DNA of 64,000 nucleotides from assembly GCA_019163375.1 (NCBI GenBank), contig JAFLKK010000009.1:1-64000 (forward strand), written 5' to 3'. This stretch comes from Paludibacter sp. Its GTDB lineage: Bacteria; Bacteroidota; Bacteroidia; Bacteroidales; Paludibacteraceae. Below, piece after piece: positions 22,710 through 39,012 of this stretch. A program made the translations under genes and the position numbers. Under the pieces are notes generated by a model. The model did no database searches, was not told the origin of the DNA, and was given only the letters and a program-made list of their open reading frames with translations. Position 1 is the first letter of the stretch; every line of letters starts with the position of its first letter.

Positions 22710-22710
22710 G

Positions 22711-22785
22711 TGGACGTTGAGGGATTTGAACCCCCGACCCTTCGGATTGTATCGGAATGCTCTTAGCCATCTGAGCTAAATGGCT
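22711..22785 (-). pseudogene. decayed tRNA (tRNA-Val-like)
   Basis: 75 nt on the minus strand that align without gaps to the neighbouring tRNA-Val. The D arm, T arm and 3' acceptor half (AACGTCC plus A) are intact. The 5' acceptor half reads AGCCATT instead of the GGACGTT needed, leaving three mismatches. The anticodon stem has a C-C mismatch, and the loop ATACAAT would give anticodon ACA, which is not a normal bacterial anticodon. Its first 10 nt are also the last codons and stop of the GIY-YIG remnant. Probably non-functional. Confidence 0.7.
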
Positions 22786-31936: not shown

Positions 31937-31978
31937 ATCATATCATCACATTATCATATCATCACATCATCACATCAT
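31937..31978. repeat. ATCATATCATCACAT-type tandem repeat
   Basis: Degenerate 7- to 8-bp tandem repeat (ATCACATC and ATCATATC words) that runs up to the stop codon of the QmoC-like gene. Read on the other strand it resembles the GTGATAATG repeats upstream of radA. Confidence 0.75.
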
Positions 31979-33018
31979 TCTTTCAACTTTGCAAAATACA
32001 TGGCGAATGAACGATATAAAAAATGTGTCCATTTACCAAATGGAACAATAATCAGTGCCCATTGAACCAACACGGTTAGGTGGAAAACATACAGCCATTT
32101 GTTTGCTTCGAGGATGTTGATGTCGATAAACAGACGAACCAGGAAAGCGGTTAAACCCATCAGAAACAACCATACCACAAAGAAAATATCAGAAGGTTGC
32201 GAGTGTTTGCTCACTTCTTTTTGCTTCTTCATGCGGCTCGAAACAAAATCTACTGTCACCACAAATACGATAGCACTCATTACGTAACCCAGTATGATAA
32301 CGAACATATTTTGGGACGAAAACCAGTCCAGCGCAACCGTGGTAAAGAGCAATGACAAATAGCCGATGACCAGAATAAAGTGTTCGAACCAGCGGAATTG
32401 ATTATCGTCGCAGCCCAATGCACGTTTCTGTGTAAACATGTGTATAAACAATTCGCCCATGCTTTTTACATACTTGGTGAATGATACGTTGACTTTCGGT
32501 TTCAGAATGGTGAAGTACCACATGCGCGCCACGTTGGGCAATAAAATAACCAAACCAACGGTTCCAATGGCTATCATTTCGAACATGTGCCCAAAATGAA
32601 CCATTTTCTCCAGTTCAAAACCAACCGACATAACGAAAGCTAATACCCCAACGAATGTAAGAATAAAAGCTGCCAAACTAACGGGCAGTGATTTGTAAAG
32701 TAGCCCCGAAAGCCCTGTCCAGTCATATTTTCCGGTCAGGTACCTTCGCAGCGACATCATCAACTCACCCGGATTGGCTTCTTGCGGACAATGGGTGGAA
32801 CATTCACCACAGTAGTAACATTCCCAGGGTTTCAGGGATGCTTTGATATCATCTTCGAGTCCAAGCGCGCTCAATCGCACCATTTCGCGCGGAAACGAAT
32901 CATCTTCGGTAGATAATGAACAAACCGCTGTGCAGTTACCACAGTTGTAACAGGCGTTGAAATTTACAGCGCCATATTTGTTCAGTTCTTTTCCAAATGC
33001 AGGATTTATTTTTGCCAT
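31975..33018 (-). CDS. QmoC-like HdrC/membrane fusion protein
   Basis: Predicted membrane subunit of a quinone-linked Hdr/Qmo-type complex. The cytoplasmic N-terminal HdrC domain carries two 4Fe-4S motifs, CYNCGNCTAVC and CYYCGECSTHCPQ (about residues 23-33 and 67-77 from the ATG). From about residue 105 come five or six hydrophobic helices of the HdrE/NarI type. QmoC of sulfate reducers has exactly this fusion. ATG 33018 (347 residues) is preferred over a GTG 21 bp earlier. It is the last gene of the operon. A menaquinone site is inferred, not seen. Confidence 0.88.
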   Translation of the reverse strand: MAKINPAFGKELNKYGAVNFNACYNCGNCTAVCSLSTEDDSFPREMVRLSALGLEDDIKASLKPWECYYCGECSTHCPQEANPGELMMSLRRYLTGKYDWTGLSGLLYKSLPVSLAAFILTFVGVLAFVMSVGFELEKMVHFGHMFEMIAIGTVGLVILLPNVARMWYFTILKPKVNVSFTKYVKSMGELFIHMFTQKRALGCDDNQFRWFEHFILVIGYLSLLFTTVALDWFSSQNMFVIILGYVMSAIVFVVTVDFVSSRMKKQKEVSKHSQPSDIFFVVWLFLMGLTAFLVRLFIDINILEANKWLYVFHLTVLVQWALIIVPFGKWTHFLYRSFAMYFAKLKE

Positions 33019-33033
33019 TAGATTTATATTTTG

Positions 33034-33112
33034 AACCACGTAGGTGCATAGATAAGATAGAAATATTACATTTCTTTCAAATGGTTTTTGTGTCCTATGT
33101 GCCTATGTGGTT
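33034..33112. repeat. inverted repeat AACCACnTAGGnnCATAG
   Basis: Arms at 33034-33051 and 33095-33112 match at 15 of 18 positions, with differences that allow G-U pairing. They enclose about 43 bp and nearly fill the spacer between the winged-helix gene and the QmoC-like gene. Confidence 0.75.
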
Positions 33113-33117
33113 AATAA

Positions 33118-33399
33118 TTATTTATTCAATTTATACGTGTAATATTCGTCCATATCATCCACTTCACCGGTTTTCACAAAACCGTATTTCACGAGCGACA
33201 TCAGGTAATAAACCACTTCATCCGAAGGCATATTGAGCTTTTCGGTAAGTTGCTTAATCGTCAAATCTTCATCTTTCAATGCTTCAAGTATCTGTTTTTT
33301 GATACCATTGAATATTTTCAGATTTTCTTTGGCCTGCTCTGGGATTCCGCCCAGTTTCTCGCGCAGGTATTTTGCTGTTTTTCCTTTTTCTACTTCCAT
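33118..33399 (-). CDS. Winged-helix regulator-like protein in the Qmo-like operon
   Basis: A 93-residue protein from ATG 33399. The central segment IKKQILEALKDEDLTIKQLTEKLNMPSDEVVYYLMSLVKYGFV fits a winged helix-turn-helix, followed by a wing-like acidic tail EVDDMDEYYTYKLNK. No sensor domain is attached. It lies within the operon, between the QmoB-like and QmoC-like genes, so it could be a local transcription factor. A non-DNA-binding assembly role is also possible, since many Hdr-type operons carry small helical proteins. No close family is recognised. Confidence 0.75.
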   Translation of the reverse strand: MEVEKGKTAKYLREKLGGIPEQAKENLKIFNGIKKQILEALKDEDLTIKQLTEKLNMPSDEVVYYLMSLVKYGFVKTGEVDDMDEYYTYKLNK

Positions 33400-33409
33400 G
33401 TTTTTTAGA

Positions 33410-33478
33410 GGTAAGAGGTAAGAAAGTAAGAAGTAAGTAATTAGCATTTACTTGCCGCTTACCTCTTACCTTCTTACT
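33410..33478. repeat. inverted repeat of GGTAAGAGGTAAGAA units
   Basis: Purine-rich GTAAG-tandem arm (33410-33430) is answered by CTTAC-rich arm (33459-33478), able to form a hairpin of about 18-20 bp in the spacer between the QmoB-like gene and the winged-helix gene. Confidence 0.75.
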
Positions 33479-33484
33479 GCTGTT

Positions 33485-35416
33485 TTATACTAATGCATCA
33501 ATCATACTCATTATTTCCTTACTCGAACAGGCAATCAGATTCACGGCATCGGGATCGCAAACCGGAGCACACATGCCACAACCCTTACAAACCGTATTGT
33601 TGATTTCAGCGATTGTTTTACCATCTTTCTCTACTTTCAGAATAGCGTCAAACGGGCAAGCCGCCTCACAAGCACCGCACCAGGTACATTTCTCCGGGTC
33701 GATAGTTGCTACCAACGGATCGGTCTCCAGCTCTCCTTTACTTAGAATAGAATAAGATTTAGTTGCTGCCGACAGTGCTGAGTTCACCGATTCTGCAATG
33801 TTTTTAGGACCCTGACAAGCTCCTGCAATAGTAATACCGTCGATAACCGTTTCCACCGGACGAAGTTTCATGTGTACTTCGTTGTAGAATTTATCGCGAC
33901 CTTTCGGTATTTTGAATAAACTTCCTATTGTATTATCGGCACGGGGTACCATGCCGGTTACCAATACCACCAAGTCGGCTTCTACTTCTATTTCACGCCC
34001 ATTCGTTAGGATGTCATTGATTTTCACAATAGTCTTCTTGCCTTCGGTTATTACGGTTGGCAGTCCATCTTCGTAGGATTGCAAGTAAATATCGCCCGAG
34101 CGCAATGAATCCGCGTAAAGTATTTCCTGTTTTCCGTAGGTACGCAAACCACGATTAAAGTGATAATTGTTGATGTCGGCAAATTTCTGCTTGGCAGTAA
34201 CCGCAGCATGAATGGTAGAAGTACAACAGTTGCGGGAACAATAGGTATTCTCACCATCAGTTTGTCGACTACCCACACAATAGATATACGCAATATTCTT
34301 AATCTGTTTGCCATTGTACGTAAGCTTATCAAACTGTGTATCAATCATACGTTTGAATTGTGGCAAAGTGATGACATTGTCAGAAGTAGCATACCCAAAC
34401 TCACCATATTCCGGCGTATAAGAGTCGAAACCGGTTGCCATTAAAACAGAACCCACTTCTACATCGAGAATTTCCTCTTTTTCGGTAAAATCAACAGCTT
34501 TGCAAACTTTCTCACATTCTCCGCAGCGGGTGCAGTTTTTTACATCAATAACCGGTATTTGGGGGTATTCGCTCGGATAGTTTTTGTAGATAGCTTTGCG
34601 GTTACTCAAACGGAAGTTGAACTCGTCAGGCACCTCCACCGGACAAACCTCAATAGCACGTTTCAAATCATCCGGATGACAAGCCGAAGCTTTGATAAAG
34701 CGTGGTGTTCTTTTTACTTTCAAGGAGATATTCCCCACACTTCCTTTATTTTCAATGACCTCACTATTAGTCAGGATAGTAATATTGTCGTGTTTGGTCA
34801 GCTCGCTATAAAGGCGTTTCACCATGTTTTTACCTGTTTCGGTAGTGGTGGAAAGCGAATCCCACTGCGCTACCCGTCCACCCACAAAAGGTTCTTTTTC
34901 GATAAGAATAACTTCTGTGTTTTTTTCTGCCAGCGAAATAGCTGCTTTCATACCGGCTACACCTGCACCAATAACAGCAACGGCTTTTTTTGCTTTAATC
35001 TTATTTGTTTCCAAAGCATCAGCGTAACGCGCTTTGGCAATGGCTGCCTTTACCAAATGAATCGCCTTTTCGGTTGCACCCATTTTGTTGTCGGAGTGTG
35101 CCCACGAGGCCTGTTCGCGGATATTAGCGTGCACATAGGTATATTTGTTCAAATCGGCCCGAATGGACACATTGCGAAAAGTCAACTGGTGAAGTTTTGG
35201 TGAGCACGAAGCTACGATCACACCATCGAGATTGTTGGCTTTAATGTCGTCCACCATATCGCGCTGATTGGTATCGGAGCAAGCAAACATCGTTGTTTTA
35301 GCAATAAAAACAATATCTTCTCCTTCCACCGACTGGCGAACTTTTTCTACATCTACATAATCGGAAATATTACCACCACAATGGCAAATATAGACTCCTA
35401 TCTTTTTCTTTTTCAT
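33485..35416 (-). CDS. QmoB-like HdrA-family flavoprotein with C-terminal 2x[4Fe-4S]
   Basis: A 643-residue HdrA relative. The N-terminal HdrA cysteine cluster is present (C11, C13, C46, C71). It is followed by an FAD Rossmann motif VAVIGAGVAGMKAA (about 146-159), with VGGRVAQW but without the CxxC that HdrA normally has next. An internal ferredoxin motif is CTRCGECEKVC (about 295-305). At the C-terminus are CTWCGACEAACP and CKGCGMCAPVC. This layout resembles QmoB, except that the MvhD module is a separate gene here. It overlaps the upstream QmoA-like gene by 4 bp, so the two subunits are translationally coupled. It is likely to bifurcate or relay electrons. Confidence 0.88.
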   Translation of the reverse strand: MKKKKIGVYICHCGGNISDYVDVEKVRQSVEGEDIVFIAKTTMFACSDTNQRDMVDDIKANNLDGVIVASCSPKLHQLTFRNVSIRADLNKYTYVHANIREQASWAHSDNKMGATEKAIHLVKAAIAKARYADALETNKIKAKKAVAVIGAGVAGMKAAISLAEKNTEVILIEKEPFVGGRVAQWDSLSTTTETGKNMVKRLYSELTKHDNITILTNSEVIENKGSVGNISLKVKRTPRFIKASACHPDDLKRAIEVCPVEVPDEFNFRLSNRKAIYKNYPSEYPQIPVIDVKNCTRCGECEKVCKAVDFTEKEEILDVEVGSVLMATGFDSYTPEYGEFGYATSDNVITLPQFKRMIDTQFDKLTYNGKQIKNIAYIYCVGSRQTDGENTYCSRNCCTSTIHAAVTAKQKFADINNYHFNRGLRTYGKQEILYADSLRSGDIYLQSYEDGLPTVITEGKKTIVKINDILTNGREIEVEADLVVLVTGMVPRADNTIGSLFKIPKGRDKFYNEVHMKLRPVETVIDGITIAGACQGPKNIAESVNSALSAATKSYSILSKGELETDPLVATIDPEKCTWCGACEAACPFDAILKVEKDGKTIAEINNTVCKGCGMCAPVCDPDAVNLIACSSKEIMSMIDALV

Positions 35417-36714
35417 GCCTGTTGAATTAAATAACTAATAGCTTCGGACGATGCGGCTCCTGCCGAGAGAATTGAATCCGGAATATCCATAGGTCCGGTG
35501 GCAGTACCGGCCACGAAAACGCCCTCGATACTCGTTTTGGCCGGGCTGGCAAGCATATCACTTTGTCCCACAAAACTAAACGGATCCAGTGCCAACGTTT
35601 CATTGACGAAGAATTTATCGATGCCTTTATTGGGCAATACGCCGGTCGACAAGATAACCATATCGTGTTCCGCTTCCTGCAATTTTCCTTCGTTGATATC
35701 TTCATATCGAAGCAGCAGATTTCCACCTTCTTTTTCCGAAATTCGTCCTATTTTCCCCTTCACAAAGTTCACACCCATACCTTTGGCTTGTTGGTAAAAC
35801 TCTTCAAATCCTTTACCAAACGAACGAATATTGATGTAATATATCGTCACATCAGCCATAGGCAATGCACCCATCAGCAGTTGAGCCTGTTTAATGGAAT
35901 ACATACAGCAAATTTGCGAGCAGATAGGATTTCCAACCGAGGCATCACGCGAACCAACACACAGTACATACGCAATTTTATCGGGCACTTTTCCATCTCC
36001 GGGACGAAGAATGGTATTGAACGGACGGGTTGGAGCCAATTCACGCTCCATTTGCAAAGCCGTAATCACGTTTTTATATTGTCCGTAACCATAACGAGGC
36101 ATCTTCTTAGCATCGAACATATCAAAACCGGTAGCAATAACTACTGTTTTTACATGCAAATCCATTACTTCAACTTCTTGGGTAAAATCAATACAATTGG
36201 TAGGGCAAACTTTTTCGCAAGCACCACACAAAGTGCAATTATCGATATCAATAGCGGCAGCCTTGGGACTACAAATGCTGAACGGAATAAATGCTGCTTT
36301 ACGACCAATTAGTCCAAACTGATACTGATCGCGGACATTTTGCGGACAGGCTTTTTCGCACAACTGGCAAGCTGTACAGTCCTCCACGCGAACATAACGG
36401 GGGTGTTTGGTTACTTTAGCTGTAAATTCATGGTCGCTTATTTTTTTTATCTCGCCTACTTCGCTCCCCGTAAAAATGGTAATGTTAGGGTGCCGCGATA
36501 TCTCGGAAACTTTGGGAGTGGTGATACAAGCCGAGCAGTCGAGTGTTGGAAACACTTTGCTGAGCATGATCATTTTACCGCCCACCGAAAGCTCTTTATC
36601 CACCAAAAGCACTTTAAAGCCTGTGTTGGCAAGATTCAATGCCGCCTCGCCACCGGCAATACCGGCACCAATGACTAATGCATCGTAGCTGATATTCTTA
36701 ATTGGGTTTTCCAT
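35413..36714 (-). CDS. QmoA-like HdrA-family flavoprotein
   Basis: A 433-residue FAD protein. The dinucleotide motif VIGAGIAGGEAALNL lies at residues 14-28. LDCSACITTPKVSEI (C60, C63) is the HdrA cluster-ligand segment. Two 4Fe-4S motifs are at C113-C116-C119-C123 and C160-C163-C166-C170. It lacks the long HdrA N-terminal domain and the C-terminal ferredoxin, which fits the compact QmoA type. It overlaps the MvhD-like gene by 1 bp and the QmoB-like gene by 4 bp, so the three form a tight translational block. Predicted to work in the cytoplasmic module of the membrane complex. Confidence 0.88.
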   Translation of the reverse strand: MENPIKNISYDALVIGAGIAGGEAALNLANTGFKVLLVDKELSVGGKMIMLSKVFPTLDCSACITTPKVSEISRHPNITIFTGSEVGEIKKISDHEFTAKVTKHPRYVRVEDCTACQLCEKACPQNVRDQYQFGLIGRKAAFIPFSICSPKAAAIDIDNCTLCGACEKVCPTNCIDFTQEVEVMDLHVKTVVIATGFDMFDAKKMPRYGYGQYKNVITALQMERELAPTRPFNTILRPGDGKVPDKIAYVLCVGSRDASVGNPICSQICCMYSIKQAQLLMGALPMADVTIYYINIRSFGKGFEEFYQQAKGMGVNFVKGKIGRISEKEGGNLLLRYEDINEGKLQEAEHDMVILSTGVLPNKGIDKFFVNETLALDPFSFVGQSDMLASPAKTSIEGVFVAGTATGPMDIPDSILSAGAASSEAISYLIQQA

Positions 36715-37121
36715 TAGGCATGTAGTGTTTTAAGTAAATACTCATTGAAGGTACGCATCTGTTTTACAAACGATTCGCTGCAAACCGAACAGATGGCAGC
36801 CATGCGCAAACGTGCAGGTTCAATCCCATTTTCTTTCATCAAATTGTGTGTTTTTCCTACTAAATGTCCTGTCTTCTCGGTACATGATTCACCAAAAACA
36901 CAGTCGCTACCATCGGCAGCAATAAACACACCGTCGAATCCTTTTTCGTAAGCGTATAGTATCCAACTTGGTTTTATTCCGCTTGAACAGGGAATAGAAA
37001 TGGTATACACGGTAGGTGGGTAATGTAGTTTTAGTAATCCGGCCATATCAATAGCTGGATCGGATATTTTTTCGGTGGAAAATACCAGTATTTTCGCACT
37101 TTTTTTGTTGAGTTCTGCCAT
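36714..37121 (-). CDS. MvhD/FlpD-like electron-transfer subunit
   Basis: A 135-residue protein from ATG 37121 (a TTG 9 bp earlier is possible) that matches the MvhD/FlpD domain. It starts with AKILVFSTEK, then shows IPCSSGIKPSWILYAYEKGFDGVFIAADGSDC and a cysteine-rich segment FGESCTEK..AICSVCSESF. The family carries a [2Fe-2S] cluster and links hydrogenase or formate dehydrogenase to HdrA; in QmoB it is fused to the C-terminus. The gene directly precedes the two HdrA-like genes. The electron source in this organism is not visible. Confidence 0.85.
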   Translation of the reverse strand: MAELNKKSAKILVFSTEKISDPAIDMAGLLKLHYPPTVYTISIPCSSGIKPSWILYAYEKGFDGVFIAADGSDCVFGESCTEKTGHLVGKTHNLMKENGIEPARLRMAAICSVCSESFVKQMRTFNEYLLKTLHA

Positions 37122-37146
37122 TATGGTCAATTTAAAGTATTATGTT

Positions 37147-37235
37147 GAACGCAAATTACTCAAATCAGAATTTAAAATAAACAACTCATTTATATATCAA
37201 TTCAGGAGCAGTCTTTATTTGCGTAATTTGCGTTC
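37147..37235. repeat. inverted repeat GAACGCAAATTAC
   Basis: Perfect 13-bp arms (37147-37159 and 37223-37235), extendable to about 19 bp with one mismatch, in the TusA/MvhD spacer. The right arm region TTTGCGTAATTTGCGTTCT is nearly the same as the TTTGCGTCATTTGCGTTCT tract at 41148-41166. Confidence 0.85.
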
Positions 37236-37254
37236 TAATCCATTACTGAAGAAA

Positions 37255-37506
37255 TTATTTTTTCTTCATGTAAACCTTGAAGTAGCCATTTTCTTCTACC
37301 CATCCCATGTATTCATGACCTTGTTTGCCACACCATTTCGGAATGTCTTGTTTTGTTCCTTCGTCCGACGAAAGAATTTCCATTACATCACCGGCTTTGA
37401 TAGTTCCAATAGCTTTTTTTGCTTCCAAAAGTGGTCCCGGACAAGCTGTTCCACGTGCATCTACCGATCTTGCTACATCTACTGATTTTAATTCTTCTGC
37501 TGTCAT
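37255..37506 (-). CDS. TusA family sulfurtransferase
   Basis: An 83-residue sulfur carrier. The active-site motif is ARGTACPGPLLEAKKAI (Cys22, CPxP type), which carries a persulfide in family members, followed by the usual beta-alpha-beta ending KQDIPKWCGKQGHEYMGWVEENGYFKVYMKK. In sulfur-oxidising bacteria, TusA genes are grouped with dsrE and hdr-like genes, as here. In this operon it lies between the DsrE-like gene and the MvhD-like gene, so it is more likely part of energy-related sulfur transfer than of tRNA thiolation. That conclusion rests on context. Confidence 0.92.
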   Translation of the reverse strand: MTAEELKSVDVARSVDARGTACPGPLLEAKKAIGTIKAGDVMEILSSDEGTKQDIPKWCGKQGHEYMGWVEENGYFKVYMKKK

Positions 37507-37526
37507 AATAATAAGTTATTAGTTGT

Positions 37527-37586
37527 TATTTTGCCCTACGGGCGTTATTTACTTCGTGTTATTTACCCTGTGGGCGTTAATATAGT
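37527..37586. repeat. GGGCGTTATTTACTTCGTGTTATTT intergenic repeat unit
   Basis: Two related units, CCCTACGGGCGTTATTTAC and CCCTGTGGGCGTTAATAT, separated by TTCGTGTTATTTA, in the DsrE/TusA spacer. The AATAACACGAAGTAAATAACG core is shared with the repeats on each side of the phenylacetate-CoA ligase gene. Confidence 0.75.
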
Positions 37587-37605
37587 TATCAATCCCGGCC
37601 AAAGG

Positions 37606-38172
37606 CTAGATAAATAGTTGTATCGAACTTTCACCTGCATCGGCTACAAATGTTGCAGCTCCGGCATAACTTAAGTTCGGGTAATCAATAAATTCTTCTT
37701 TTTTGAAACCCATGAGGCCCATCGACATTTCGCAAACTACAATTTCAATTCCCAACTCACCCGCTTCTTTGAACATAGTTTCCAGAGACATCACATTTTG
37801 CTTTTTCATAAGATAACCAATCATCTTGGGTCCCATGCCTGCCATATTCATATTGGATAGTTTGAGTTTTTTCGTTCCTGTGGGAAGCATGCAACCAAAC
37901 ATTTTAGAGATAATATCTTTTCCTTTTGGTGATTTGTTTGGATCGCGAAGTGCAGATAGCGACCAAAAAGAGAAAAATAGCTTCACTTGAGTGTCCATGG
38001 CAGCAGCCGCAATCGAAATTACCATTGCGGCCAGTACTTTGTCCAAGTCGCCCGAAACAACTGCAATAGAAAGTTGATCTTTGCGGGAGTTTTCTAACTG
38101 AGAAATTTTATCTTTCAGAGCATCAATTTGCACTTGTAATTGTTCAATAGATACTTTTTGATTATCTTCCAT
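37606..38172 (-). CDS. DsrE/DsrF-like (DsrE3-type) sulfur-carrier protein
   Basis: A 188-residue protein with an N-terminal coiled coil (about 7-33) followed by a DsrE-fold: LSIAVVSGDLDKVLAAMVISIAAAAM, FFSFWSL, and GIEIVVCEMSMGLMG (about 141-155). Cysteines occur at 94 (MFGC) and 147. DsrE3 proteins accept and pass on sulfane sulfur and partner with TusA in sulfur oxidation loci, in agreement with the gene next door. First gene of the operon, transcribed divergently from the Crp/Fnr-type regulator. Confidence 0.88.
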   Translation of the reverse strand: MEDNQKVSIEQLQVQIDALKDKISQLENSRKDQLSIAVVSGDLDKVLAAMVISIAAAAMDTQVKLFFSFWSLSALRDPNKSPKGKDIISKMFGCMLPTGTKKLKLSNMNMAGMGPKMIGYLMKKQNVMSLETMFKEAGELGIEIVVCEMSMGLMGFKKEEFIDYPNLSYAGAATFVADAGESSIQLFI

Positions 38173-38216
38173 TTTGATTATATTTTTAAATGATTCTGAT
38201 TAAAGAAATTCTTCTG

Positions 38217-38224
38217 CAAATGTA
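38217..38224 (-). promoter_or_regulatory. -7 element of the Qmo-like operon
   Basis: Minus-strand TACATTTG matches TAnnTTTG, 45 bp upstream of the DsrE-like ATG. No TTG lies at the -33 distance, as expected for a promoter that needs an activator. The palindrome at 38279-38294 is centred about 73 bp upstream of the predicted transcription start. Confidence 0.5.
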
Positions 38225-38277
38225 GGTGAATAAAAAAATGGAAATGATTTTTATCGCGTGTGACTGCATACATTATT

Positions 38278-38307
38278 TTGTGATATGCATCACATTGTAT
38301 ATCTTTG
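38278..38307 (+). promoter_or_regulatory. promoter of the Crp/Fnr-type regulator gene
   Basis: TTG (38278-38280), 19 bp, TATCTTTG (38300-38307): a perfect Bacteroidota promoter, 27 bp upstream of the ATG. The spacer contains the TGTGAT palindrome, so a bound protein should cover the -33 box. Confidence 0.8.
38279..38294. promoter_or_regulatory. TGTGAT-N4-ATCACA operator for a Crp/Fnr-type factor
   Basis: TGTGATATGCATCACA has perfect 6-bp half sites of the CRP type. It is in the only spacer between the regulator gene and the divergent operon. It overlaps the regulator's -33 box (autorepression likely) and is in an activator position for the operon. The adjacent regulator has the CRP-type contact residues that read TGTGA. 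Confidence 0.75.
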
Positions 38308-38334
38308 CATCTTGTTTCGTAAAATCAACTACAC

Positions 38335-39012
38335 ATGCAAAACGATTGTAAAAATTGTCCGTTTAATTCAAAGGCTGCATCCATGTTAAGCGACTGCAGC
38401 TTCGATCAACTTTCTGAGAATCATCTGGTTCTCAAATTCAAGAAAGGTGATAGCATTATTAAGCAAGGGATGTATTCCACCAACGTGGTTTTTCTTCGTA
38501 CCGGTTTAGCTAAAATTCATTTAGCCGGTCCGTATCATGAGCAGATCGTAAAACTGGTAAAAGCTCCGACATACTTAGGATTGCCAACCACTTTCGGAGA
38601 CAAAATAAATCAGTATTCAGTAACGGCAGTTTCGGAGGTTGAAGTTTGTTTTATTGACGTGGAGGTTTTTCAAACGATTCTGAATGAAAATCATGCGTTC
38701 TCACATGAAATAGTACTTGAACTTTGCCGAAATGAATTAGAATCGTTTCATCGATGTGCTAATCGCACTCAAAAACTTCTGCGTGGAAATATGGCAGATG
38801 CTTTACTCGAGTTTTCAGACAAAATCTTCATGTCAGATACATTTACATTGCCTTTGTCGCAAGTAGAGTTGGCCAACCTGGTTGACACAAGCCGCGAGAG
38901 TGTAAGTCGTATCTTGACCGAGTTTGACAAAGATGGAATTATTCAATTGAAAGGCAAAGAGATTCAAATTACAAATAAAAAATCATTGCAACTCGTTAGT
39001 CAAAACGGGTAA
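38335..39012 (+). CDS. Crp/Fnr-family regulator with FNR-like cysteines and CRP-like recognition helix
   Basis: A 225-residue transcription factor: N-terminal cyclic-nucleotide-binding fold, long dimer helix, C-terminal helix-turn-helix. N-terminal cysteines C5, C8 and C21 plus C105 (SEVEVCFIDVEVF) match the spacing logic of the four FNR cluster ligands (C20, C23, C29, C122 in E. coli), so an oxygen- or NO-sensitive Fe-S cluster is likely. The recognition helix TSRESVSRIL (R187, E188, R192) has the CRP contact pattern R-E-x-x-x-R, not the FNR one. It is divergent from the Qmo-like operon and probably controls both. HcpR-like nitrosative-stress regulators are the alternative relatives. Confidence 0.87.
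   Translation: MQNDCKNCPFNSKAASMLSDCSFDQLSENHLVLKFKKGDSIIKQGMYSTNVVFLRTGLAKIHLAGPYHEQIVKLVKAPTYLGLPTTFGDKINQYSVTAVSEVEVCFIDVEVFQTILNENHAFSHEIVLELCRNELESFHRCANRTQKLLRGNMADALLEFSDKIFMSDTFTLPLSQVELANLVDTSRESVSRILTEFDKDGIIQLKGKEIQITNKKSLQLVSQNG

Follow-up and report, generated by a model that had tools for sequence, protein, structure and literature searches.

Background

The HdrA-type flavoproteins take part in several described electron-transfer systems, of which the closest to the one considered here are the QmoABC complex that accompanies AprAB (type I), the MvhADG-HdrABC complex (structure 5odc) and the sHdr system of sulfur oxidation. We report the analysis of a related operon, in which two HdrA-like flavoproteins and a QmoC-like membrane subunit are encoded together with the sulfur carriers TusA and DsrE, found in a 64,000-nucleotide stretch of Paludibacter sp. 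(contig JAFLKK010000009.1, positions 1 to 64,000), referred to below as the window. With modest confidence, we propose that this operon encodes a membrane-attached sulfane-sulfur (persulfide) oxidoreductase tied to menaquinone, whose net use would most likely be the reduction of persulfide to sulfide.

A further group of relatives, the type II Qmo/HdrA complexes, has been described by Neukirchen et al. 2023 (PMC10504309), where their function is given as unclear; the main text of that paper contains neither 'Bacteroid-' nor 'MvhD' and names TusA twice, as donor to DsrEFH in one passage. HdrA/MvhD and Qmo proteins have been treated in sulfur disproportionators (PMC12142623, PMC4911364), the relevant passages dealing with systems other than a TusA-linked cluster of Bacteroidales. 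YTD clusters are the subject of PMC13293266 and PMC12998232, in whose passages on them a Qmo-TusA complex is not described, and the passages of PMC7768429 and PMC5760507 hold nothing on a TusA-linked Qmo cluster. Across the literature searched, supplements aside, we found no description of a TusA-linked QmoABC cluster in Bacteroidota.

Results

Gene content of the operon

Matches to Pfam, HdrA and qmoC models recover all seven genes of a minus-strand operon spanning 31975-38172, together with the divergent Crp/Fnr-type regulator, as the initial annotation of this DNA had proposed. The features are as follows.

31975-33018, minus strand: QmoC-like subunit of 347 residues with HdrC-type di-[4Fe-4S] and membrane cytochrome-b-like domains (NF038018, E 4.3e-42, below cut-off)
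33118-33399, minus strand: small winged-helix protein of 93 residues, probable subunit (HTH_5, barely above the Pfam cut-off)
33485-35416, minus strand: QmoB/HdrA-like FAD and 4Fe-4S flavoprotein of 643 residues (HdrA2 model, 573 bits; 5odc_A, 470 bits)
35413-36714, minus strand: QmoA/HdrA-like FAD and 4Fe-4S flavoprotein of 433 residues (HdrA models; 5odc_A, 373 bits)
36714-37121, minus strand: MvhD/FlpD-like protein with cysteines C45, C74, C80 and C111-x-x-C114 (PF02662, E 2.8e-27)
37255-37506, minus strand: TusA sulfur carrier of 83 residues, Cys22 in CPGP (PF01206, E 1.6e-23)
37606-38172, minus strand: DsrE-like sulfur carrier of 188 residues (PF13686, E 6.5e-46; closest solved structure 3pnx)
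38279-38294, no strand: Crp-type palindrome TGTGATGCATATCACA between crp and dsrE (sequence reading and the upstream stretches of relatives)
38335-39012, plus strand: divergent Crp/Fnr-type regulator (PF13545, PF00027)

The best model matches of both the QmoA-like and the QmoB-like protein are HdrA models and solved HdrA. The QmoC-like protein reaches 144.9 bits against the qmoC model NF038018, short of its curated cut-off of 300, and its similarity to HdrC covers approximately the first 95 residues. With two HdrA-like subunits and a QmoC bearing di-4Fe-4S and membrane heme domains, the predicted architecture is that of QmoABC. The operon had been called tight, with overlaps of 1 and 4 bp: the overlaps are exact (MvhD/QmoA 1 bp, QmoA/QmoB 4 bp), but the close packing is confined to the middle part, the remaining intergenic gaps being 99, 133, 85 and 99 bp. 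The start of QmoC supported by conservation is the ATG at 33018 and not the GTG at 33039. Filler resembling simple or inverted repeats occupies 31939-31975, behind qmoC, and 33410-33480, in the gap between qmoB and the winged-helix gene.

Recurrence of the gene order

The gene order recurs in many more genomes than chance predicts. Public species genomes, scanned with an alignment of QmoC, gave at least 533 loci encoding relatives, of which the best 80 were examined. DsrE, TusA, MvhD, QmoA and QmoB lie upstream of QmoC in 58 of these 80, part of the counted DsrE being divergent and short; among the 58, a separate winged helix is recognised in 44 and not in 14. Short upstream DNA accounts for 19 of the 22 loci without the full DsrE-to-QmoB set, and the three with enough upstream DNA comprise one without recognised MvhD, one without recognised DsrE and one that runs from MvhD onward only. 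The titles of the best 80 loci name Bacteroidota groups, save for one 'Chlorobiota' metagenome-assembled genome (MAG), and the isolates among them are Labilibaculum euxinus A4 (L104), Labilibaculum sp. K2S and Petrimonas sp. IBARAKI. Searching proteins for relatives of QmoA gave 5878, of which the best 120 were listed, with little taxonomic information.

The order sample consists of 198 Bacteroidales genomes, and the QmoC profile matches in 45 of them at E<=1e-60; 26 of these have an E-value of 1.5e-139 or lower, which we term family-proper. Neighbourhoods were opened for 11 of the 26 family-proper genomes and contain TusA in nine (G000, which is the window's own genome, G025, G030, G035, G047, G056, G085, G181 and G199), while that of G152 is a cassette of type B, as defined below, broken by a contig end. 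In the phylum sample the profile matches in five of 395 genomes, the window's own being the sole family-proper one and the other four having E-values of 1.5e-79 to 9.7e-90. Two of these four, from another class of the phylum (G477 and G259), carry TusA-MvhD-QmoA-QmoB-QmoC with a DsrE-like gene behind QmoC, and a winged helix between QmoB and QmoC is recognised in G477 and not in G259. The seven-gene order that the initial annotation suggested looking for is thus conserved across Bacteroidales, and its core extends to these two genomes. As will be seen, it is not bound to aprAB or dsr, in keeping with the suggestion of a separate system in Bacteroidota.

Two types of an exchangeable cassette

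TusA, MvhD, QmoA, QmoB and the winged helix form one cassette that exists in two types, A and B, and has been swapped repeatedly between the Crp-DsrE and QmoC flanks; this exchange is a new observation of the present analysis. In type-B QmoA, window residue 158 is followed by an insert of ~470 residues that contains Fer4_20 and Pyr_redox_2 domains. The structures nearest to this insert are 9bov, 9n5u, 8oh5, 4ylf and 5jca, in their NAD(P)H-binding GltD/Nfn-like part. The winged-helix part is fused to the C-terminus of QmoB in 21 of 21 type-B loci and in 0 of 68 type-A loci. Because of this fusion, the winged-helix protein is probably a subunit rather than a regulator, and a role as operon regulator is disfavoured on the same sequence evidence. 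DsrE and QmoC are common to both types.

Rows for the residue counts and trees were taken from 89 loci, the best 80 and nine added by hand. Those shorter than 85% of the window protein were dropped, as were matches to DsrE, TusA or Crp that did not exceed 100 bits, and the DsrE figures thus exclude loci with a divergent DsrE. The comparison of seven gene trees used 48 rows including the window, 34 of type A and 14 of type B. The type changes once on each of the TusA, MvhD, QmoA and QmoB trees, as against five times on that of QmoC, four on that of DsrE and eight on that of Crp; when labels were shuffled, 100 times per tree, at least 8 to 10 changes were needed. When every available row is used, the type again changes once for each of these four cassette genes, versus 7, 8 and 9 times for QmoC, DsrE and Crp. 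On quick trees with no mixture model, a single type-B clade is rejected for QmoC (p-value of the approximately unbiased test 0.022), DsrE (8e-5) and Crp (9e-80). At the DNA level, the closest pair of A and B loci (L095 and L090) is 87% identical in the part that begins with crp and runs approximately to the stop of dsrE. Identity is 65-75% where pieces of the cassette can be aligned, and 79% within qmoC once the first 60 bp or so of that gene are passed.

That TusA changes type together with MvhD, QmoA and QmoB is the strongest evidence that it is a matched partner of the flavoprotein core. The initial annotation had allowed that TusA might be an incidental neighbour; its co-segregation with these genes, and the joining of the operon to YeeE and rhodaneses in some genomes, argue otherwise.

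A QmoB search of 24 genomes of the genus, the window's own included and some of them incomplete, found type A (the close form) in eight, type B (52-54% identity) in ten and neither in six; among the matches listed, both types occur together in none of the 24.

Conserved residues

Cys22 of TusA, in its CPxP-type motif, is invariant in 71 of 71 aligned rows, Cys147 of DsrE, the putative active residue, in 61 of 61, and all five MvhD cysteines (C45, C74, C80, C111 and C114) in 72 of 72. Hydrogenase- and Hdr-linked MvhD proteins of the order possess the CNWC and GCHPGDC cysteines of the canonical [2Fe-2S] signature, which the window MvhD does not have; the TusA-linked MvhD has lost the cysteines of CNWC and GC and gained C80 and C111-x-x-C114.

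The HdrA-type cysteines of QmoA are retained in type A and in nearly all type-B rows. QmoB does not have the DCSxC pair, and some of its rows also do without one 4Fe-4S insert. Rows that lack this insert (window residues ~250-305) number 14 of 59 in type A and 5 of 20 in type B, and the QmoB tree shows eight changes in its presence. In QmoC, eight cysteines of the clusters are retained, as is C203, and the histidines H213, H313 and H332 are conserved at 0.99-1.00 and H144 at 0.92. A structure model of QmoC has a predicted local distance difference test score of 70.8 and, in a fold search, places NarI at the top, but weakly (E 0.15).

Relation to Apr-, Dsr-, Hdr- and hydrogenase-linked systems

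The initial annotation had noted that AprAB and DsrAB are absent, and for the markers AprB (PF12139) and dsrA (TIGR02064) this is borne out across the window's own genome, which has no match to either. AprB is found in 12 of the 198 genomes of the order; dsrA does not exceed its cut-off in any of the 198 and matches weakly in one, G146. Neither AprA nor AprB is listed in any of the best 80 loci and AprB is present in only three of the 26 family-proper genomes, so that the cluster is not always beside aprAB or dsr, an outcome that had been left open. AprB loci were opened in 11 of the 12 AprB genomes (all but G121). AprBA is followed by its own QmoABC in six of the six loci not cut by a contig end (L039, L040, L160, L162, L163 and L166); the five others are cut (L161, L164, L165, L167 and L168). 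The AprBA-QmoABC arrangements of G037, G030, G199, G154, G106 and G148 represent an adenosine 5'-phosphosulfate reductase without recognised dissimilatory sulfite reductase, going by the dsrA count above.

For the QmoB tree, 40 hand-picked rows (25 TusA-linked, 6 Apr-linked, 6 hydrogenase-linked and 3 Hdr) were used in a quick, midpoint-rooted reconstruction. The TusA-linked rows, with those of G477 and G259 among the 25, all share one side of a branch (98), and AprAB-linked (100), hydrogenase-linked (100) and HdrABC-linked (81) groups are separate. By this tree HdrA and hydrogenase-linked relatives appear to be closer to the QmoB-like subunit than AprAB-linked QmoB is. A comparison with the AprAB-linked proteins, as the initial annotation had advised, therefore sets TusA-linked QmoB on a separate branch, and the term 'Qmo-like' fits the subunit architecture but not the lineage.

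No HdrB (CCG) gene lies in the cluster, as had been stated, and none is recognised in the window's genome, whose sole CCG protein, of 241 residues, reads as LldE/LutA-like. This genome also has no PF00384 molybdopterin oxidoreductase and hence no Psr/Phs/Ttr-type catalytic subunit.

A similar QmoABC-MvhD core occurs in other clusters with hydrogenase replacing TusA/DsrE. At L121, L127, L130, L133, L134 and L135, QmoA, QmoC, QmoB and an MvhD-like gene stand beside open reading frames (ORFs) of 323-337 and 487-488 residues. In L135, the only locus so checked, Pfam identifies the large ORF as a NiFe-hydrogenase, while the small ORF reads as its small subunit, and these loci apparently encode a hydrogenase-linked quinone complex. 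At L171, a 1490-residue HdrA/Qmo-like fusion lies behind a QmoC-like gene and is followed by an MvhD-like gene and two ORFs.

Extended loci with genes for sulfur import

At L141-L145 and other loci, in other Bacteroidales, further genes lie ahead of the operon: a second TusA, a YeeE-type transporter (PF04143), rhodaneses (PF00581), Porin_O_P and DsrE-like genes, as checked by Pfam for L141 and one DsrE of L142. A close relative of the L141-type YeeE (E<=1e-80) is present in 10 of the 198 genomes of the order, and all ten possess a Qmo operon linked to TusA, either complete or split over contigs; in nine, at least the TusA of the operon is on the same contig as this YeeE, contig ends intervening in G085. 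Beside YeeE, and in several cases the porin, stand lipoproteins of the rhodanese type whose C-terminus is GGCGG or close to it (GGCGE and GGCGD in L144; loci L141-L145, L151-L155 and L158), an ending reminiscent of the C-terminal arm of SoxY.

Regulation

The palindrome between crp and dsrE matches the pattern TGTGA-N6-TCACA. Corresponding upstream stretches were counted where DsrE exceeded 100 bits and Crp 150 bits, with both within 700 bases. GTGA-N6-TCAC is present in 34 of 46 such stretches, window included, against 0.16 expected from mononucleotide shuffles (an earlier count with crude ORF starts gave 30 of 45), and the fuller TGTGA-N6-TCACA in 29 of 46. The site presumably resembles the motif of HcpR-type regulators. 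Residues C5, C8 and C105 of the regulator are invariant in 55 of 55 aligned rows.

Elsewhere in the window, a tRNA at 22710-22785, called as Cys with anticodon ACA, scores 34.6 bits in Rfam versus 67-74 for the other four tRNAs and is odd or degenerate.

Discussion

Proposed mechanism

The mechanism that we propose is built from protein families and conserved ligands. TusA and DsrE, judging by their families, would hold sulfane sulfur on a cysteine in the cytoplasm, and a loaded carrier would dock on the remodelled MvhD, whose conserved CxxC may accept or split the persulfide. QmoA and QmoB would then relay electrons by way of FAD and 4Fe-4S clusters, and the HdrC-type clusters and putative b-type hemes of QmoC would connect these flavoproteins with the pool of menaquinone. 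In type B, the NAD(P)H-binding GltD/Nfn-like module would serve as a second electron input. Most likely, the net outcome would be that persulfide is reduced to sulfide and so serves as a sink for electrons under anaerobic conditions. Menaquinol by itself is too weak a donor for persulfide reduction, for which reason electron confurcation may be involved. The initial annotation had linked the menaquinone pool to persulfide-loaded TusA/DsrE in the metabolism of sulfur, polysulfide, thiosulfate or sulfite; sulfane sulfur is the better supported of these substrates, while for sulfite and thiosulfate we find no support.

Formation of the complex and its substrate are thus inferred, and the direction of electron flow is probably reductive. 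We favour this direction because of the import genes of the extended loci, the type-B NAD(P)H module, the reported reduction of elemental sulfur (S0) to H2S by Petrimonas sulfuriphila (PMC9695182, citing Grabowski 2005) and the lack of follow-up oxidation enzymes among the tested markers, dsrA and AprB.

Several observations weigh against this proposal. Type B is carried by another Petrimonas strain (L090), so phenotype and gene cluster belong to different strains, and type A has no visible second electron donor. The MvhD of the other class (G477 and G259) has only the CxxC of the five cysteines, which are therefore not a universal site; as the sole part retained there, the CxxC becomes the best candidate for contact with the carrier. 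A divergent DsrE stands in for DsrE in some loci, and in G210 (L136, L158) the family-proper QmoC, on C264, lies in a hydrogenase-type gene order, the TusA-linked cluster being on C14. YeeE/YedE (PF04143) has no match in the window's own genome and is not enriched with family-proper QmoC (8 of 26 versus 93 of 198). We reject an association with YeeE in the main family on these counts and claim the linkage for the extended lineage alone. The Marinifilaceae, including Labilibaculum, are mostly credited with thiosulfate reductase potential in the passages of PMC9765461, so that other sulfur reductases may co-occur with the cluster.

Alternative explanations

The alternative that survives best, though we consider it unlikely, is that the complex works in the oxidative direction, as a sulfide/persulfide:menaquinone oxidoreductase that turns sulfide into persulfide on TusA and passes electrons to menaquinone. 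It would then take the place of SQR, either to detoxify sulfide or to use it as an additional electron donor. In favour of this, the transfer of electrons from sulfide to menaquinone is downhill by the redox potentials. Black Sea isolates of Bacteroidota, one of them Labilibaculum euxinus SYP, also grew in the presence of as much as 7 mM sulfide, and in the relevant passages the authors report no sqr in their own taxa except in one Ignavibacteriota MAG (PMC11129491); the cluster is present in L. euxinus A4, a different strain from SYP. Against it, the type-B NAD(P)H module is better suited to a reductase, the genes for YeeE, rhodaneses and porin in the extended lineage indicate import of sulfane sulfur, and neither of the markers of further oxidation tested, dsrA and AprB, has a match in the window's genome.

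A biosynthetic or thiol-redox role, in which the complex would set the redox state of TusA/DsrE for thiolation or for Fe-S or cofactor synthesis outside energy metabolism, has a precedent in functions described for E. coli TusA, but is improbable given that the QmoC-type membrane subunit is retained throughout, that the operon is patchy within a single genus (18 of 24 genomes, some incomplete) and that a Crp-type control site and, in extended loci, periplasmic sulfur genes accompany it. The adjacency of TusA and DsrE to HdrA-type flavoproteins recalls an sHdr-like pathway oxidising TusA-bound sulfur to sulfite; this is very improbable, and we reject identity with sHdr for the lack of HdrB in the cluster and of any recognised in the genome, where dsrA and AprB, the oxidative follow-up markers tested, are likewise missing. 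A canonical QmoABC serving AprAB, though identical in subunit architecture, is rejected with near certainty, AprB being absent from the window's genome and scarce in family-proper genomes, and AprBA having its own QmoABC on a separate QmoB branch.

Significance and comparison with known systems

If the proposed persulfide oxidoreductase is real, a sizeable share of anaerobic Bacteroidales (the 26 of 198 with family-proper QmoC) has a sulfur-based redox system that surveys of dsr, apr, psr and phs marker genes would overlook, and fermentative Bacteroidales such as Petrimonas gain a candidate enzyme for S0 reduction. It might also give a role to the 'type II' Qmo/HdrA complexes (PMC10504309). 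Since two natural cassette types differ by the NAD(P)H module, the combination of electron donors by Hdr/Qmo proteins becomes directly testable. In its fullest form, which we put forward tentatively and with more doubt than the basic function, the proposal is that Bacteroidales possess a quinone-linked reductase of persulfide, or a reversible persulfide/menaquinone oxidoreductase, that has not been described before, whose MvhD would have traded its [2Fe-2S] ligands for a TusA-serving CxxC and whose swappable core would come with or without an NADP(H) confurcation module. In one lineage it might end a chain from outer membrane to quinone, running through porin, rhodanese lipoprotein (with SoxY-like GGCGG arms), YeeE, TusA/DsrE, MvhD and QmoABC.

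Among known systems, the NAD(P)H sulfur reductase NSR (PMC9431562) is a possible functional parallel in its cytoplasmic, NAD(P)H-dependent reduction of sulfur, and yeeE is induced with S0 or thiosulfate; judged by its description, however, NSR is another kind of flavoprotein. The YTD cluster (yeeE/yedE-tusA-dsrE; PMC13293266, PMC12998232), as described there, is comparable in the extended loci only, which share its YeeE, TusA and DsrE genes and add the HdrA/Qmo-type complex, rhodaneses and porin, whereas the window's genome is without YeeE. The type II QmoAB(C) of Neukirchen et al. (PMC10504309), known to us by description rather than by sequence, possibly overlaps with the present family. The sHdr sulfur-oxidation system likewise combines an HdrA-type protein with TusA/DsrE, but here HdrB is lacking and a membrane QmoC is present. 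The AprAB-linked type I QmoABC shares two HdrA-like flavoproteins, a fused HdrC/cytochrome-b QmoC and the link to menaquinone; the present operon differs in its separate QmoB lineage, in having TusA/DsrE and not AprBA, in the extra winged helix and in an MvhD that is a gene of its own with other cysteines. With MvhADG-HdrABC (5odc), finally, it has in common the HdrA fold, the HdrC-type clusters and MvhD, while HdrB and hydrogenase are missing from the window cluster and a membrane subunit and sulfur carriers are added.

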